DNA from: Panagrolaimus kolymaensis
Lineage: Eukaryota > Nematoda > Chromadorea > Rhabditida > Panagrolaimidae
NCBI GenBank assembly: GCA_028622995.1
Contig: JAJQJQ010000012.1
Location: 1,674,001-1,738,000 of the forward strand
DNA: 64,000 nucleotides
Direction of reading: 5' to 3'
Under the pieces are notes generated by a model, which was not told where the DNA came from, did not search any database, and saw only the letters and a list, made by a program, of their open reading frames with translations. Made by a program: the position numbers and the translations under genes. This document shows, one piece after another, positions 9,086-63,711 of this stretch. Each line of letters starts with the position of its first letter. Within the stretch, counting starts at the first letter, position 1.

Positions 9086-9490
9086 ATATATATTTTTTGT
9101 TTGTTCTCGATGGGTACTTGCTGCTTCTTTTCTCCAGAATTTAGCGTGTCCCATTCTTGAAAAACTTTTTTTCGTGGTTATAAAACGAGTATCTCCGATT
9201 TATTTTTAGTTTATTTTCTAATTTTTTATCAAAGAATAATGTATCATATGGAGAAATTTTAAAACTCAAAACAAAAACTACTTTTCTCGCTTTTTTTACG
9301 ACGGCATTTCTTTGTTTTTTGTTTTTTATATTTAATGTTTTTTGTTAAAATATTTAGTCGCGTAATAGCTTGAATTTTTTAAAATGTTTTGAAATACAGA
9401 TGTAATAAACGGGTAACTATTATTCATAATTTGGTTGCTACAAACATAGAAAAATGAAAATACATCTAAACATAAAGTTTCACAAAATAT
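9086..9490. other. Intergenic: 3' flank of the membrane-protein gene
   Basis: No coding content is seen. The stretch holds the 3' UTR of the upstream plus-strand gene, with an AATAAA near 9401, and ends where a repeat shared with 12425-12590 begins. Confidence 0.5.
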
Positions 9491-9645
9491 TAATACTTAC
9501 TTAGTGAGCACGTTATTTTCATAAAAATTTTTTTTATCATTATGGAAGATTAGTTTCTGCGTTTGTACATAAATTTTTGAATTCAAGAAAAAAACTATTA
9601 GTTTTTAAAAATATACACATTTATTATATGATGGACAAAAAAAAT
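9491..9645 (-). repeat. Copy 2 of a ~155-bp direct repeat (neurensin-type poly(A) region)
   Basis: This matches 12425-12590 in the same orientation by eye, with shared blocks such as ATCAYTATGGAAG, TTTCTGCGT, ACATTTATTA and GACAAAAAAAA. On the minus strand it carries AATAAA at about 9620, placed to serve the fused gene that stops at 9757. It begins where similarity between the fused gene's 3' flank and the ZC3H14-like gene's 3' flank stops (about 9645 against 62648). The other copy lies just downstream of the neurensin gene. Confidence 0.65.
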
Positions 9646-9756
9646 ATTTTTTATAACAAACGTTTATAAACAATGGAAAAAATAAACTACGACAAATTAT
9701 TATTAGACTATAGTTGTTTTTGACACAGAGAAGCGATTTGAAGGCACATATTTCGA

Positions 9757-11673
9757 TTATGCATATATCTTTACCCAACGGAAACGACCAACATTCTTCT
9801 TCGGATGCCAAAAGTAACATGATTCATTTGTACAAGCTTCATCAAAACGACATCGCTAAAAACAATAATCATAAGTAAAAATCATTAAAGAATCAAACAA
9901 ATGCTTACTTTGGGATGGCGAAAAGTACAAGCTTCATTATTGCATCGAGCACCAAAACGACATGGAACACTGCTTGTAAGCTGCTGCAAAGACAAATTCA
10001 ATGGTTTAATACTTGAAACAGTTGATGGTTTAGATGTTGAAGCTCGAATATCTGGAGTATTTTTGATATCAAATGATACAATGAATTCGGTTTTTCCTCC
10101 ATTGGCATCATTTACTTCTGTTAAATTTTGTTTACCATTTGTTTTACTTTCATTGTCTTTAGTAGATGATTCGATTTGTGTTTTTTCAGTTGACTTTTTT
10201 GATGATTCAGTTAAAATTTTTGAAAGAGTTGTAGCAGCACCATTTGAATCAGCATTGGTTGACAAAGGATTTGGTTGGTGGACTGAATGAGCAGCTTTAG
10301 GCCTAAAAAATGTTGTTATCTTTGATTTAAAAAACAAAAAAAAATTACGCCATAGGAGGACGAGGTAATGTATGAGGATAAGGACATGTCGGTTTCTTAC
10401 AATTTGGTTCATATTTACATTTAGGATGAAAAAATAAGCATTTGTCACCAAATCGACAATTAGGAAAGTTGGTGCATCGTTTTGGTGGATGAGAAGATGA
10501 GCACGCTCTTTCATTACGACATTTTGAACAAAAATTACATCGTTTATGAATCTTTCCAACTTCAGGAGCTTTGGTACCACCAAATTGCAGAAAAGAAAGA
10601 GGATATGAATTACTAAATGCAGTTGATAAATATCCGTTTGACCAAAAACGACATCGAGATGGAGGAGTGCGAAGCTTTAATTTAGCTTGACGTTCTGATT
10701 TCTTTTGAGCACGACAAACAGTGAGCTTGAGTTTGGTGTCAGGAAGTTCAAAGCCATCAAGATTTTCAACAGCAGCTTCGGCAGCTTCAGCAGATGAAAA
10801 GGCAACAAAACCAAAACCTTTTGATTTTCCTTCAGCATCTTTCATGACGGAGCAACTTGTAATTTCTCCATGTTTTTTGAACAATTCTTCCAGCTTTTCA
10901 TCATCGAGTTCATCCCCAAAGTTCTTAACAAAAACATTCGTGAAGTGACGATCACCATCTCCAAGTTCATTCATACGAGCACCACGAGAATGAAATTTGC
11001 CGACGACCACTTTCTTTCCATCAAAGAGCATACCATTAACACGTTCAATCGCTTGTAGAGCTGCGTCTTCTTTTTCAAAGTGAATAAAGCCATAACCACG
11101 GCTTTGACCACCATCATCAGTAGCAATCTTGCAGGAGAGAATTGTTCCAAAGAGTGAGAATGTATCATACATAGATTTGGTATCAATACGTTTGTCAAGG
11201 TTTTTGATGAAGATATTACCAGCACCAGAACGACGAATTGATGGATTACGTTGGGACCACATAATACGTATGGGTTCATTGTTCATATGATCAAAGTTCA
11301 TGGTGTCCATAGCACGTTCAGCTAAAAAAGTCATTTGGTAATAATGATTAAATAAAATATAAAAAAAATCACCATCAGCAGGATTTTTGAACTTGACATA
11401 TGCATAACCAAGAGATCGACGAGTGATAGCATCACGACATACACGAATGGAAAGAACAGGACCTGTTGTTGAGAACTTTTCAAAGAGTTGAGCTTCGGTA
11501 ACATCAGGATGAAGATCGCCAACGTAAAGCGATGCCATAGGATAAGCTCCATTATTCGTTGTGCCCAGAAGCTTTTTGAGTTGCGATGGAGTCGAAACCG
11601 GTGGAGCAGCAGTAGCCTTAGCAAGAGCAGCGGCCATCTCAGCATATATAGAAACCGTTGGAGCAATAGACAT
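9757..11673 (-). CDS. Chimeric PABP(RRM1-3)-ZC3H14-like(CCCH x5) protein
   Basis: Four exons (11373-11673, 10349-11321, 9909-10302, 9757-9855) join in matching phase to encode 588 residues. Residues about 48-305 hold three RRMs nearly identical to the PABP at 58827-60943, with RNP motifs intact ([45 protein letters not shown]). The first intron sits at the same site as in PABP. Near residue 317 the sequence switches to the ZC3H14/Nab2-like gene at 62762-63711, including its five CCCH fingers (about 362-417 and 535-573) and both of its introns. RRM4, the PABP linker and the MLLE domain are absent. PABP RRMs and ZC3H14/Nab2 fingers are both known poly(A) binders, so an RNA-binding role is inferred. 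The upstream flank copies the PABP promoter. There is no stop or frameshift. Expression is unproven. Confidence 0.85.
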
Positions 11674-11990
11674 TTTTGAAAACCTAAAAATGAAAGGATT
11701 AATAAGAGAAGAAACGAAGAATAGGAGGCAACTAAACTCAATAAAGTTTCAAAAAAAAACAACAAGCGGGTTTTTCAATAATTTTATAAATTTTTTTGAT
11801 AGTTTTTATAAAAGTATTTTGTTTTTAGGCTTTAAAAAAAATAAAACCAAAAAAGCAAAGATGAATGATGAAAAAACTGAAGAATGAAGATGGTTTAGAA
11901 AATGATTTATTAAATTAAGCTAAAAAATCGGGTATAATAATATGCAAAAGAAATGAAGTGAATAATTTCCAATCTTTATTAACATGCTTG
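11674..11990 (-). promoter_or_regulatory. Duplicated PABP promoter/5' flank
   Basis: The reverse complement of this stretch aligns by eye with the PABP upstream flank at about 58540-58826. Shared landmarks are the TTTCATTTTTAG acceptor 10-11 bases before the ATG, a block around AAACCCGCTTGTTG, a run reading TATAAAAACTATCAAAAAAA, and TTCACTTCAT further out. The TTTTAG before the start codon in both genes is a likely trans-splice acceptor. The fused gene has therefore probably inherited PABP-like transcription. Similarity fades beyond about 12000. Confidence 0.7.
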
Positions 11991-12424
11991 GAAAAAATTT
12001 GGTTTGGACAAAGTACAAAGCAATAATTCAAGATCCAAGGGCTTGGTCAATGGTTTTATCAATGAATATTAAATTTGTTAAGAAACGTGATTACGATGAT
12101 TAAGGTTTTTTACGAACATTTTTTTGGACGTTGCACGAACCAATTCATCGTATTTTAACGAAATGGGAATCTTGGCCCCATTTCAATTCTTCCAGTTTGC
12201 ATTTGGCAGATGTTTTGTGAGATAATTAAGCTTTTGGTGAAGATAAATTTGAAGAAAATTTCGATTGCTTTCTCAAATAATCTAAATAAATTGGCAAATT
12301 TTTATATTCGCAACAACCAAGGATATAAAGAGAAATTCAACAATATTATTAAAGAGATTCTTGAATCATAGTCGCCTCAAACAGAAGTGCCTTCAGTTAG
12401 ATTTTAACTTTACATACAATTAAA
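11991..12424 (+). other. Possible decayed coding remnant
   Basis: This stretch has fewer homopolymers than its surroundings. It contains short broken plus-strand frames, for example a Trp-rich piece at about 12130-12220 and a 24-codon piece at about 12297-12371 ending ...FNNIIKEILES then a stop. The frames are interrupted by several stops. I do not recognise the source. It sits between the duplicated PABP promoter and the neurensin poly(A) region, so it may be insertion debris. Confidence 0.3.
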
Positions 12425-12590
12425 TATAAATACCTAACGTTATCATGTATTTTTATAAAAGAATGTTTATCACTATGGAAGTTTACTTTCTCCACTTTCT
12501 GCGTAAATTTTAAAATTTAAGAAAATAATTATTTGTTCTCAAAAAGAAGCACATTTATTAGATGATTGACAAAAAAAAACATAAAAATAA
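12425..12590 (-). repeat. Copy 1 of the direct repeat; neurensin poly(A) region
   Basis: This lies about 210-380 bases downstream of the neurensin stop codon and contains AATAAA on the minus strand at about 12549, so it is probably that gene's native 3' end. It matches 9491-9645 in direct orientation, as described there. Confidence 0.6.
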
Positions 12591-47065: not shown

Positions 47066-47224
47066 TTTTTTTGTTACTTAGACTTTTAAAATAAATTACT
47101 CAAAAAATAATAAATTAAACTTCTAAAAAAAAGAACTTTAAAGAAAAACATTTTTCCAAATTTTATTGCAATTCAAAAATAAAATCAAAAATAAATACAA
47201 ATTCAACAAACAACAAAATAAATA

Positions 47225-48397
47225 TTACAAAGTTTCAGAAACAGGATGGGAAAGTCGTCGAGCAATTTCAGCCAAAATTTTATCATTAAGAGTATGAATT
47301 CCACTCAAAAAAGTTGGGGGATCAAAATATTTCATCAAAAAGGAAAGACAATATTCAGGTAGATGAATACAATTATATGTAAGAGACAAATTCGCGTATT
47401 GACAAACATTAGTTTCGGATAAATTTTCAATCAAAAAAGATTCTACGATAGTCTATAAAATAAACGTTTAAAAAAAATTTCAAAAAAATAAATATAATTA
47501 ACTCACTTTCATATCAACTAAATCATATTTATCCGCAAACTTGAGAAGTTCAGCTGCATTATCACCGGTGACAAATGGTTTTATATCGCGTTCATAACAA
47601 AATTCAATCGCAATTTCAACTATTTCTGCATCAAAATCGGTGATAATAACTTTGTTTTCTTCGGCTTCTTTCATTCCCGAACGAAACATTGCTTCAAAAA
47701 CCTTCGATTGAAGTGTTAAAACCCATTTATGGATCTAAAAGACAATAAATAGAAAAGGGTTAAAATAAACAATTTAAACTTTGTACCATAATTTTTTGAG
47801 TTCCAACAAAAAGACTAATATCCTTATCATCATCCTTTTCCCATAAAGCTTGAGCCAATTTACTTGGATTTACCAATGGTTCATTGGTTTTTAAACCTTC
47901 TGGATTCAAAGTTGCTTCAAGTTCAATAGTCATAATTCCATCAACAAAGAATTTGTTTTCTGCGTTAAAAAGATTTTCACGTGTACTCAAAAACTTTCCC
48001 CAACCAACTGGCTCGTCATAAGCAGTTATAACATTGATTATTTTTGAAGCAGATTTAATGGAAATATTAAAATCAACATTGACTTTCTTTACCATTTTAA
48101 AACAATCGAATTTTAAGAAAATCAAAACGTCGTCAGGTTTGTCACTATTGAGGCCATTTGGAGCAATTGAAAGAGAATATTTTACTCCAGGAATTTTAGG
48201 AACATTAAATCCAGCGCTATGCAACCGTTCTTCTTTTGTTTCTCGTAAAGTTTGTTCTTTAATATACCATTTCATTGTAATTTTACATTCTCGGGGCTAA
48301 GAAAAAAAAGTTATATAAAAGAAACCAAACTAAATAAAAATAAAATGCTTACAAACTTATCATCAAGCGAATCCATTTTCTTATCGATTGTATCCAT
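47225..48397 (-). CDS. MATH-BTB protein (copy A)
   Basis: Exons 48353-48397, 47787-48296, 47507-47734 and 47225-47452 all join in phase 0, giving 336 residues. A MATH domain spans roughly 18-155 and a BTB domain roughly 172-265 (DISLFV...HKWVLTLQSKVFEAMFRSGM...LLKFADKYDL), followed by a BACK-like helical tail. MATH-BTB proteins recruit substrates to CUL3 ubiquitin ligases and form a large, fast-turnover family in nematodes; substrate choice is set by the MATH domain. It has the same exon structure and length as the gene at 49617-50800 and is a tandem duplicate. An AATAAA lies near 47165 on the minus strand. Confidence 0.9.
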
Positions 48398-48844
48398 AGT
48401 TAAAAAAAATCTTTTTCTTTTTGAAAGGATGAACGAATTTTATTTCTTGAATATTTTTTTGAAAGTATTAATGCACAAAATTTTATTATTCTTTTATTTC
48501 GTAAAGAGCCAAATAGATTATGCCTTTAAGTAAATCTTCACATATTACTTTTATGCCTCAGTATTATTAAAAATGAAAACCGTGACTAAACAATTTTTTT
48601 TACTTGTAAACTTGTAAACCAAGAAAGAGAAGGGTTTTAAAAAATGATGGCCATTGGCCAATATCTAAAATAATATTTTACTTTAATGCTTTCTTGTAAC
48701 CATGAGAAAAGTATTTTACACGTTTATTTTTTCATCAAAAAAGAATTATTCGCAGAAGAAGAAAAAAATTTCAATTTTTTATTTGAACAAGCATGGGTGA
48801 AGTCAAAATAATTTGAATCAAAAAAATGAAAAACAAATAATAAA

Positions 48845-49165
48845 TTACAAAGGTTCAGCGATGCGATGAGAAAGTCTTCGTGTAATTTCTGCTGCAATTG
48901 CATCATCAAGAGTATCAATACCTAAAATAAAATTTGGCGGATCAAAAAATTTCATCAAGAAACAGGTGCAAAATTCTCGCAATTCTTTACAGTTAAAAAC
49001 GATGGACATGTTTGCATATTGACAAACATTAGCTTCTGATAACGATTCAATTAAATAAGATTCGATCAAAGCCTTAAAATAAGTATTTCTTACATATTGG
49101 GGTAATAAAATAAGAAAAGACTAACTTTCAAATCAGCGATATCATCAATTGGATAAAGTTTCATT
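48845..49165 (-). pseudogene. Decayed MATH-BTB copy (last exon plus a fragment)
   Basis: The last exon (48845-49072, 228 bases) is open and closely resembles the final exons of both neighbours (ESYLIESLSEANVCQYANMS). Just upstream, 49126-49165 retains only the end of the preceding exon (a degenerate IDDIADLK in place of FADKYDLVDMK), with a GT at the right place. The MATH domain and most of BTB are missing; between here and 49616 only AT-rich DNA is seen. It is a 5'-truncated remnant of the tandem array. Confidence 0.75.
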
Positions 49166-49616
49166 ACTTTCTTCTTTGTCTTGCATTACCAAAAAAATCC
49201 CTAAATAAACAACTTACTATTCACAAAAATTTTGTATGTATATGCTTTTATGTATCAAAAAATATGAGTTTTACAACGCGCCAAATCGAAATTCAGTGAA
49301 GGGTTATACGTTACAAAGGTAGGTTTCATAGTTCATAGAGCTCGATAATTATCATTCCACTTATATGTGCATGTTTATAATGCTTTCAAATTAATAAATG
49401 GAAGAATATCTACGGAAGAGATTGTTAATTTTGAAATTTAGATTTATGATATACTTTAACAATGTATTATAAAACTTGTGAATTTTTTTAAAAATTGAGT
49501 TTTCCTTAGGTTTTTCGAATTCTCCAATCAGTTTTTTTCTTCAACTTTTTATTGAAAATAATTCAAACAAACAAAGCAACCACATTTTAAATATCGAAAG
49601 AAAAAAAAACAAAGGT

Positions 49617-50800
49617 TTACAAAGCTTCTGCTGTTGGATAAACAATTCGATTAGCAATTTCAATTTTGATTTCATTTTCAAGGATATGAATATCACCCAA
49701 ATAACTCGGTGGAACAAAATATTTCATTAAAAAGCAAACGCAAAATTCTCGAAGTTCTTTACAATTTGAAGCAACTGCCATATTTGCATATTGACAGACA
49801 TTATCATCAGATAAAGTTTCAATTAAATATGATTCAATAATAGCCTATAAATTATTTGGAAACTAAAATAAAAATACGCAAAGATAAAACGAACTCTCAT
49901 ATTTGGCATATCATATTTGTCAGCAAATTTGAGGAGTTCAGCTGCGTTTTCATCGGTGATAAATAATTTTATATCGCGTTCATAACAAAATTTAACCGCA
50001 ATTTCAACTATTTCTGCATCGAAATCGGTGATAACGACTTTATTTTCCTTTTCTTCTTTCATTCCTGAACGAAACATGGCTTCAAAAACTGGAGAGCGAA
50101 TAGTTAAAATCCACTTATGGATCTAAAAAAGAGATAAGGAAAATGAAAAAGTATACTACAAATATATATAAAAAAACATACCATCATGTACTCATTTTTA
50201 ACAAAAAGGCTTATATCTTTATCATCTTTTTCCCATAATGCTTGAGTCAATAAATTAGGATTAATGGATGGAGCATTTGTTTTTAAACCTTCTGGTTTCA
50301 AAGCTGCTTCAAGTTGAATGGTCATAATTCCATCAACAAAAAATTTGTTTTCGGAATCAAAAACAAAATCATGCGTACCCAACTTAACTCCCCAACAAGT
50401 TGGTTTGATGTAATCATGACTAATTTCAATATCCTTCGAAGATGATTTGACAGAAATGATAAAATCAGCATTAATTTTCTTTGCATTTGCAAATTTTAAA
50501 CTTAAAAAAGCCCAAAGTTCTTCAGGTTTATCATCATCGATGCCATTGGGAGCTATCATAAGGCCATAGTTAAGTCCAGGAATTTTTGAAGCCGCAAATT
50601 CGGTGCTCATTAAAAATTTTTGTTTTGTTTCTCGTAAAGTTTTTTCATTGATTGACCATTTCATCGCAATTTTGCATTCCATTGCCTATAATATGAAGAA
50701 AAAAATAAGAAAAAAATAAGAAAAAATTTTTAAATTTAAATAAACTTACAAATTTATTATCAAGTGTATTTGGTTCAATTTTATTGAGAATTTGAGCCAT
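49617..50800 (-). CDS. MATH-BTB protein (copy B)
   Basis: Exons 50750-50800, 50182-50685, 49895-50122 and 49617-49844 all join in phase 0, giving 336 residues. MATH (about 20-155) and BTB (about 170-265) domains are followed by a BACK-like tail ending YPTAEAL. Exons 3 and 4 are both 228 bases, as in copy A. The BTB core (MFRSGMKEEKENKVVITDF) is almost identical between copies, whereas the MATH half differs at many positions, a pattern expected if substrate binding diversifies while CUL3 binding is kept. The likely role is a CUL3 adaptor. Confidence 0.9.
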
Positions 50801-58215: not shown

Positions 58216-60943
<2,728 letters not shown>

Positions 60944-61644: not shown

Positions 61645-62130
61645 TAGGGTGGACCGATCTACCGGTAGATTGAAAAATCGGTAGATCTACCGGTAGATCT
61701 ACCGGTGGATCTACCGGTAGATCTACTGAAATCTACCGCAAGTCCAAAATTCGAAAAGAAAGGGATTTTGAATCAAGGAATACAAAATTAAGGATATAAG
61801 GCTATTTTTGGGCACAAAAATAGGTTTTGCAAACTTTTAAAAAAATTTCAATTTTTCAACAGGGTGGACCAAGCTATTACTTTCCTATCATAAACTCTCC
61901 CCTGTTAAAAAAATTCAAAAATTTTCGGAAATAGAGAAAACATCGTTTTTATGCATTTTAGAACCTGCTAATTCATAACTTTCGCTTAAAAAACTCCGAG
62001 AACGTCTTTTTTTAAATTTTGGTGGCGCGGTAGATTTCGGTAGATTGGAAAATTTTTTCGGTAGATTTCGGTAGATCTACCGGTAGATCTACCGGTAGAA
62101 TCTACTGGTAGATCTACCCGGTCCACCCTA
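61645..62130. mobile_element. hAT-type MITE (486 bp) with palindromic terminal repeats
   Basis: The element begins TAGGGTGGACC and ends GGTCCACCCTA. It is flanked on both sides by GCTTGCAA (61637-61644 and 62131-62138), a perfect 8-bp target-site duplication; both fit hAT superfamily rules (8-bp target site, YARNG-type tip). Each end carries tandem 12-base GATCTACCGGTA units in which GATCTACCGGTAGATC is a perfect palindrome. There is no transposase frame, so it is non-autonomous. The centre (about 61858-61913) holds a smaller inverted pair, AACAGGGTGGACC ... CTCCCCTGTT. Confidence 0.85.
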
Positions 62131-62761
62131 GCTTGCAAACACAGGTTCAGTGCAAAACGCAAACGACATACTTGATTCTTCCGATGCATGTTCCACTATC
62201 AAAAGCATTTAAAAGGATAAATAATAAAATATTTATTTTTAATATGAGCTTATAAGTTTCATACTGTATAAATGTTAAAACTAACAAACATGAATACATA
62301 AAAATGAACAAAGGTGCTGTGATCAAAAATCGAGCAAATAATAAAGTATCCTCTTTCATGATAATATCCTAAAATGAAAATGCATATTGTTAGATAAAAA
62401 GATTGAAAATAAGAATCAAGAGGTATCACAAGTTTTGTTTTATCATTGAATTTAATCAATCAAAAGAAACTTAAAAGACTGTTGACAATTAAACTATTAA
62501 TAATCGATATTAAAGGAGTGAAGATGCTTAGATTTCAAAGGGATAAATGTTGCATCGAATAATGATAAACATAAGAGAGAGAAAAAACCGGCATTTCATT
62601 GATTCAAAGAAATGATACATACAAACAAACAAAAAGACACACAAAATTAATTTTTATAACAAAGTTTATAAACAAACGAACAAAACTAAACTACGACAAA
62701 TAATTATTAGGCTATAGTCGTTTTTGCCACAGTGAAGAGATTTGAAGTGCACATATTTTGA
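62131..62761. other. 3' flank of the ZC3H14-like gene
   Basis: This non-coding stretch begins with the second target-site copy. From about 62648 to 62761 it is the ZC3H14-like 3' UTR, duplicated at about 9646-9756. Minus-strand frames at 62147-62459 are hydrophobic, AT-rich and unsupported. Confidence 0.5.
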
Positions 62762-63711
62762 TTACGCGTCTGTCTTGATCCAACGGAAACGACCAGCATT
62801 CTTCTTCGGATGCCAAAAGTAACAAGATTCATTTGTACATGCTTCATCAAAACGACATCGCTAAAAACAATAATCATAAGTAAAAAATCATTAAAGAATT
62901 AAACAAATGCTTACTTTGGGATGGCGAAAAGTACAAGCTTCATTATTGCATCGAGCACCAAAACGACATGGAGCACTGCTTGTAGGCTGTTGCAAAGACA
63001 AATTCAATGGTTTAATACTTGAAACAGTTGATGGTTTAGTTGTTGAAACTGGAATATCAGGAGCATCTTTTGTATCAAATGATACAATAACTTCTGTCTT
63101 TCCTCCATTGGCATCATTTTCTTCTGTTTCATTTTGTTCACCTTCAGTAACATTTTGTTCACCATTTGTTTCACTTTCATTGCCATCAGTAGTTGATTCG
63201 ATTTGTCCTTCATTTGCAGTTTGGCTTTCAGTAGGCTTTTTTGGTGACTCAGTTAAAGCTTCGGAAGGAGTAGCAGCAGTACCATTTGAATCAGCATTGG
63301 TTGACAAAGGATTTGGTTGGTGGACTGAATGAGCAGATTTAGGCCTAAAAAATAAATGTTGTGATCTTTGATTTAATAAATAATATCAAAAACTTACGCC
63401 ATAGGAGGACGAGGTAATGTATGAATATAAGGACATGTTGGTTTGTTACAATTTGGTTCAAATTTACATGGAGGATGAACAAATAAGCATTTGTCACCAA
63501 ATCGGCAATTAGGAAAGTTGATGCATCGTTTTGTTGGATGAGAATATGAGCATGCTTCTTCATTACGACATTTTGGCCAAAAACGACAGCGTTCAGGAAT
63601 CTTTCCAACTTCAGGAGCTTTTGTACCACCAAATTGCTGAAAAGGATTTGAATAACTAAATGCAGTTGATAAATATCCGGTTGACCAAATTTGCAAAGGT
63701 TGTAGTGCCAT
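62762..63711 (-). CDS. ZC3H14/Nab2-like CCCH poly(A)-binding protein
   Basis: Exons 63398-63711, 62915-63344 and 62762-62860 join in phase, giving 280 residues. Five CCCH fingers occur in the ZC3H14/Nab2 order: [34 protein letters not shown] and CKFEPNCNKPTCPYIH near 42-100, then [16 protein letters not shown] and [16 protein letters not shown] near the C terminus. A roughly 120-residue Ser/Thr/Glu-rich linker separates them. Family members (worm SUT-2) bind poly(A) RNA in the nucleus and limit tail length. The usual N-terminal PWI-like domain is not present: the frame starts 41 residues before finger 1. It may be a short form, a truncated paralogue, or lack an upstream exon beyond the window. 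It is the source of the 3' half of the fused gene. Confidence 0.85.

Follow-up and report, generated by a model that had tools for sequence, protein, structure and literature searches.

A chimeric gene joining PABP RRM1-3 to the CCCH fingers of ZC3H14/SUT-2 in Panagrolaimus kolymaensis: a putative effector-less poly(A)-binding protein

A gene composed of parts of two neighbouring genes was located in a 64,000-nt stretch of the Panagrolaimus kolymaensis genome, termed the window here, on a contig designated C11. Its 5' portion is derived from the poly(A)-binding protein gene (PABP) and its 3' portion from a ZC3H14/SUT-2 gene (ZC), both of which are represented in the window. The features concerned are as follows.

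9757..11673, minus strand: coding span of the fusion gene, 588 aa plus stop in four exons (blastn, spliced CDS and Pfam)
11673-11373, 11321-10349, 10302-9909 and 9855-9757, minus strand: the four exons, spliced with parental splice sites
11322..11372, minus strand: intron 1 of the window copy, 51 nt, donor GTGATT, a multiple of three and stop-free
10303..10348, minus strand: intron 2, 46 nt, donor GTAATT
9856..9908, minus strand: intron 3, 53 nt
11674..11888, minus strand: copied PABP upstream region (promoter/outron), containing TTTTTAG, the end of which lies 10 nt before the ATG
10647..10675, minus strand: junction filler, 29 nt, not significantly similar to either parent near the join
10588..10646, minus strand: 59 nt of ZC3H14 intron or alternative first exon, now protein-coding
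9640..10587, minus strand: ZC3H14-derived part (fingers 1-3, linker, fingers 4-5, 3' UTR)
9485..9644, no strand assigned: flanking direct repeat, downstream copy (blastn)
12422..12578, no strand assigned: flanking direct repeat, upstream copy, 76% identical to the downstream copy
58827..60943, plus strand: PABP parent, with RRM4 (split between exons) and MLLE in later exons
62643..63711, minus strand: 3' finger end of the ZC3H14/SUT-2 parent, the remaining exons of which lie beyond the window

In blastn comparison within the window, positions 10676-11888 (minus strand) of the fusion aligned with 58619-59831 at 89.7% identity over 1,229 columns, representing the upstream region and 5' end of PABP through RRM3, with homology beginning approximately 215 bp upstream of the fusion ATG. 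Positions 9640-10646 (minus strand) aligned with 62643-63689 of the ZC gene at 86.3% identity over 1,054 columns. An earlier note on this DNA had described a PABP match from the promoter through RRM3 including the first intron site, a subsequent ZC match through five fingers, introns and 3' UTR, and a frame open over 588 codons with parental splicing. All of these were borne out: the first by blastn together with the shared upstream region and intron 1 site, the second by blastn and the spliced CDS, and the third by the spliced CDS of the window copy. The gene at 9757-11673 is confirmed as a true PABP-ZC3H14 chimera. A chance open reading frame is ruled out, since two genes match it at about 90% and 86% identity over stretches exceeding 1 kb. 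Retroposition is also ruled out, since introns, the upstream region and the 3' UTR were copied. A plasmid search with the PABP exon gave no match, a result that carries little information for a nematode.

The Pfam matches of the 588-aa protein comprise three RRM_1 stretches and Nab2-type zf-CCCH_2 (PF14608), the five CCCH fingers being joined in frame after PABP RRM1-3. At the N end before RRM1, gaps of 1 nt and 2 nt relative to PABP leave a short stretch frame-shifted between them. In the other two copies of the fusion, on contigs C5 and C3, intron 1 is 52 nt long with donor GTGAGT; since that of the window copy has 51 nt without an in-frame stop, the frame there also remains open upon intron retention. 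The intron 2 donor of the ZC parent is GTAAGT (C11, C3) or GCAAGT (C5). The TTTTTAG site in the copied upstream region is a putative trans-splice acceptor. Structure prediction for the exon-2 piece of the fusion gave a mean pLDDT of 49.4, obtained with 8 sequences.

Regarding the join, comparison of the 29-nt filler with both parents near the join gave no significant match that would indicate its origin (permutation P 0.17-0.86). The finger exon of the ZC parent would most simply start directly after TTTTCAG, at CAATTTGG. In all three fusion copies this parental acceptor is altered, to CTG in C11 and C3 and to CTT in C5. Because the join lies upstream of the likely acceptor and its AG has been lost in every copy, about 20 codons appear to be exonised intron or alternative first exon. 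The latter may apply to the stretch MALQPLQ, because in the ZC parent an ATG begins an open frame through it.

The part of PABP that was copied excludes the remainder of RRM4 and the MLLE domain of the parent (PF00658, 84.4 bits). For the other parent, the earlier note had been right about its identity but not about its extent: the ZC3H14-like gene placed at 62762-63711 is merely the finger-encoding end of a longer gene. Exons upstream of the finger exon, encoding a PWI domain and an RS-rich stretch, were found in C3 and C11, extending in the latter beyond the window to about C11:1,739,640; the PWI domain, scored for C11, reached 25.7 bits against a cutoff of 22 (PF01480). A short, self-contained ZC parent is ruled out by these exons. 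Its fingers match the Nab2 chains 2lhn, 5l2l and 4lj0. A protein search of the genome with the finger part (E <= 0.001) returned 17 matches, all within three ZC and three fusion loci, which indicates, at that sensitivity, a single ZC3H14/SUT-2 gene per haplotype.

P. kolymaensis is a triploid nematode, for which an assembly of 266 Mb in 856 contigs with an N50 of 3.82 Mb is described in an excerpt of PMC10374039. The genome searched here comprised 265.8 Mb in 807 contigs, and the fusion was present at three places in it.

C11: fusion 1683640-1685888, PABP 1732619, ZC 1736643
C5: fusion 6083597-6085858, PABP 6021755, ZC 6018346
C3: fusion 2757922-2760181, PABP 2710187, ZC 2706790

At each place the PABP gene lies approximately 47-61 kb and the ZC gene approximately 50-64 kb from the fusion, and the three copies probably represent one per pseudohaplotype. 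The junction is the same in all three. The flanks of the fusion also match across the three contigs, the upstream match in C5 being split into two pieces. Divergence among the copies is 4-6%, and that of the window copy from its parents is 10-14% (nucleotides). An assembly artefact joining two parental genes is therefore very unlikely, as one junction is carried by three diverged copies with matching flanks and the window copy has itself diverged from both parents. Moreover, the likely source assembly was built on 84x PacBio HiFi reads with a mean length of 14.4 kb, according to the same excerpt of PMC10374039. No points in favour of an artefact were found among these comparisons, and misassembly, which the earlier note had named as a possible refutation, can be set aside.

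A tree built from 11 RRM-coding rows (the row pab2C312 was left out, being identical there to pab2C3) placed the three fusions on one side of a branch with support of 100/97. In the ZC half, dS to the ZC parents was 0.12-0.18, compared with 0.02-0.05 among ZC alleles (NG86), by which the fusion seems to predate the separation of the pseudohaplotypes. Taken together, the shared flanks, the tree grouping and dS suggest, as the simplest reading, that the fusion is the product of a single event preceding the divergence of the pseudohaplotypes; alternatively, it could have been spread by subsequent exchange between homologues. The flanking repeat of about 160 bp was found at the fusion loci and, among the best candidates scored, at C5:6027352-6027761 and C5:5739588-5739913; these repeats provided no evidence of transposon capture at the places examined.

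The frame is intact in C11 (588 aa) and in C5 (592 aa). In C3, a TGA is located at codon 374, which is the third cysteine and a zinc ligand of finger 1, and that copy would be able to yield only a truncated RRM1-3 protein. C11 and C5 retain the complete set of 20 zinc ligands. In RRM1-3, 255-257 of 270 residues in the fusions are the same as in the window PABP (13 of 270 differing), and the best PDB matches of exon 2 are the PABP chains 6r5k, 4f02 and 1cvj. The statement that differences spare the RNP motifs applies to the stretches shown for RRM2 and RRM3, which are identical in all 11 rows, but not to RRM1: RNP1 reads LGYAYVKFK in all three fusions versus LGYAYVNFQ in all eight PABP rows compared, and in the C5 fusion RNP2 reads LYVVDL for LYVGDL (G-to-V). 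In Nab2, the adenine-contact code consists of a basic and an aromatic residue after the first cysteine and an aromatic residue after the third, as set out in the part of PMC3874189 consulted. The basic and aromatic residues of this code are all kept in fingers 3-5 of the fusion. In finger 2, as in that of the ZC parent, just the aromatic residue at C3+2 is present, and finger 1 has lost both the basic residue after C1 and the C3+2 aromatic.

Selection on the RRM half was assessed with a guard against gene conversion, in that codons were used only where all six PABP1/2 rows agreed (230 of 270, with 40 dropped). At these codons, 18 nonsynonymous and 24 synonymous changes were observed in the fusions, corresponding to an omega of 0.21 (P = 6e-7). 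With kappa varied from 1 to 4 (five PABP1/2 rows, 230 codons), omega was 0.22-0.28 (P 1.2e-6 to 5.2e-5), and after removal of 7 changes shared with PABP3, 17 nonsynonymous and 18 synonymous changes remained (P 1.6e-4 to 0.0023). Pairwise omega (NG86) was 0.31 for C11-C5, 0.24 for C11-C3 and 0.13 for C5-C3; among PABP1/2 rows it was 0.01-0.09, one identical pair being undefined. No stop was seen in the RRM half where 3.4 were expected (P0 = 0.033). The RRM1-3 half is under constraint, several-fold to tens-fold looser than that on PABP itself.

The ZC half displayed a different pattern. Pairwise omega was 1.30 (NG) or 1.02 (YN) for C11-C5 and 1.07 (NG) or 0.94 (YN) for C11-C3, while the closer pair, C5-C3, gave 0.14 or 0.09 from 2 nonsynonymous and 4 synonymous codons; among ZC alleles, values of 0.11-0.49 were obtained (0.15-0.49 with NG). 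Nonsynonymous (N) and synonymous (S) changes were counted at codons invariant in the three ZC rows and free of gaps, as listed below.

N end of ZC half: 25 codons used, 5 dropped; N 6, S 1
Fingers 1-3: 60 used, 3 dropped; N 20, S 3 (one N is the C3 stop)
Linker: 107 used, 24 dropped; N 43, S 11
Fingers 4-5: 35 used, 5 dropped; N 0, S 2
C end of ZC half: 11 used, 0 dropped; N 4, S 4

These counts show no departure from neutrality for fingers 1-3 or the linker, and a marginal one for fingers 4-5 (P 0.04-0.06 on two changes). Of the 20 nonsynonymous changes in fingers 1-3, 15 fall on the stem; on the branches that follow it, such changes are less frequent in fingers 1-3 than in the linker (P = 0.018).

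The counts bear on a reading in which the RRM1-3 half alone works and the finger half is a decaying passenger, the C3 copy showing the direction of the locus. Constraint on the RRM half is visible even in changes found in C3 only (3 nonsynonymous, 6 synonymous, P = 0.005); the neutral fingers 1-3 and linker and the stop in C3, where RRM1-3 is still open, point the same way. Other properties of the ZC half argue against it. On the stem, C11 and C5, no nonsense change was seen in this half against 5.3 expected (P0 = 0.005), and no change was seen at the 20 zinc ligands in C11 and C5 against 6.2 expected (P0 = 0.002), of which 3.7 were expected at the 12 ligands of fingers 1-3 alone. All four coding indels in the ZC half (6, 12, 15 and 21 nt) are multiples of three, compared with 7 of 41 non-coding indels (P = 0.002), some of which were counted twice; separate sets gave 4/22 or 3/19 (P 0.002-0.005). 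Ahead of RRM1, the N end contributes further gaps of 6 and 12 nt together with the compensating gaps of 1 and 2 nt, giving 6 of 8 in frame (P 0.003-0.007). The assignment of gaps to coding or non-coding sequence was made by hand, and the tests on the ZC half share data. In C11 and C5, frame and all 20 ligands are kept beyond neutral expectation despite neutral N:S, and fingers 4-5 carry no nonsynonymous change at the 35 codons scored, with 5 dropped. A working RRM half with a passenger finger half is considered possible but less likely than not.

Some of the apparent constraint may reflect gene conversion from the parental genes. Divergence from ZC is low in finger 4 (1-3 of 59 sites) and intron 3 (1-2 of 51-52 sites) compared with finger 5 and the C end (9/97) and the 3' UTR (13-17 of 96-99 sites), and part of the conservation of finger 4 may thus be due to conversion. 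Moreover, intron 1 of the C3 copy is PABP-like, unlike that of the other fusion copies, and is likely a conversion tract. Such mosaics, together with the stop in one of three copies, would fit a whole locus that is a silent, slowly decaying duplicate in which constraint is an effect of conversion. This explanation is unlikely, since the RRM test was confined to codons invariant in PABP1/2 and retained P <= 0.0023 without the changes shared with PABP3, and conversion would be expected to erase nonsynonymous and synonymous changes alike. Furthermore, the frame of the linker is kept in all three copies in spite of differences from ZC at 38-49 of 336 sites.

The description of the gene as young and constrained, for which the earlier note had proposed dN/dS against each parent separately, consequently needs qualification. 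Between the fusion copies, pairwise omega is well below 1 in the RRM half and about 1 in the ZC half (C11-C5, C11-C3); constraint is clear for the RRM half only, beside near-neutral N:S in the ZC half, and by dS the age of the gene seemingly precedes the pseudohaplotype split.

The architecture of the product can be compared with both parental families. The fusion has RRM1-3 sequence, the intron 1 site and the upstream region in common with cytoplasmic PABP (PABPC/PAB-1, TIGR01628), but has no RRM4, linker or MLLE, its three RRM_1 stretches being followed by ZC sequence; no MLLE is present among the Pfam matches of the 588-aa protein. Against TIGR01628 (cutoff 497.1), the exon-2 piece of the fusion scored 299.7 bits and that of the PABP parent 372.6, the latter also falling below the cutoff because it is only a piece. 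With ZC3H14/Nab2/SUT-2 the fusion shares five C-terminal CCCH fingers, with all ligands in C11 and C5; it differs in a degraded finger 1 and in the absence of the parental PWI and RS-rich regions. An N-terminal PWI-fold domain is described for the ZC3H14/Nab2 family in the part of PMC6371209 consulted. The Pfam matches of the fusion protein, which starts with PABP sequence, include no PWI.

The reading preferred here, to which a probability of roughly 0.5 is assigned, is that the fusion is a retained, putative poly(A)-binding chimera devoid of effector parts. A rearrangement at the DNA level would have copied PABP from the promoter through RRM3, with its intron, and joined this piece, with the 29-nt filler in between, to the adjacent ZC3H14/SUT-2 gene at a point shortly before its finger exon. 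Transcription would proceed from the copied PABP promoter. Given the little-changed RRMs and the finger code, binding of poly(A) by two modules is expected, presumably RRM1-2 and fingers 2-5. The product would lack RRM4, linker and MLLE of PABP and the PWI and RS-rich regions of ZC3H14, and since the effector parts of both parents are missing, it would not be expected to substitute for either of them; its main effect would more likely be to compete with, or modulate, proteins on poly(A) tails, primarily PABP. The suggestion that it could bridge the functions of the two parents is weaker than originally put, because the PWI domain and RS-rich region were not captured. Counting against a retained chimera are the neutral-like omega of the ZC half, the C3 stop, the losses in finger 1 and the RNP changes in RRM1. 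A stronger version, in which the product is a working, effector-free bivalent clamp on poly(A) that selection has maintained in this asexual, triploid lineage specifically to antagonise or tune PABP, is offered tentatively and is less probable than simple retention of the chimera.

Partial precedents for such an arrangement exist. Human PABPC5 is a PABP without linker and MLLE, having an RRM-only architecture; the fusion and PABPC5-like proteins have the absence of MLLE and linker in common, but PABPC5 has RRM4 and no zinc fingers. CCCH fingers and RRMs are combined in one chain in RBM26/27, RBM22 and U2AF35, which to our knowledge have neither PABP-type RRMs nor Nab2-type poly(A) fingers. Chimeric genes that arise by DNA-level rearrangement of linked genes are a known kind. 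In the literature searched, no described PABP/CCCH fusion was named in titles and the openings of abstracts, and the pairing of PABP RRM1-3 with Nab2-type fingers is an architecture new to us. If functional, it would represent a natural experiment, with two poly(A)-holding folds of unrelated type placed in one chain without partner-recruiting domains. It would further be a datable chimera of PABP and an adjacent gene, present on three pseudohaplotypes, with loss of half of the gene already under way on one of them.

Several further observations were made in the window and genome. At C5:5738536-5739053 (L021:3536-4053), near a PABP2 gene, the upstream region of PABP with its first ten codons occurs in another copy, joined to unrelated sequence. 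The PABP frame there stops after 19 codons, and an 84-codon open frame with a GTG start (72 codons from the first ATG) follows at L021:3799-4053. The PABP 5' end seems to be readily duplicated and attached to other sequences. In addition to the PABP genes described above, two sets with identities of 90% and 81-82% to the query were found, one being located at C3:2425466, C5:5744587 and C312:23539 and one at C6:2577197, C32:324547 and C1:4662190, along with a 71% partial match at C7:2029105; by these, each haplotype may carry three PABP genes besides the fusion. Between the PABP and ZC genes of the window, at 61660-62120, repeated palindromes of the GGTAGATCTACC type form two clusters. Elsewhere in the window, 47209-50764 contains a duplicated block, in which 47261-48367 and 49653-50764 are 72.5% identical over 1,132 columns.
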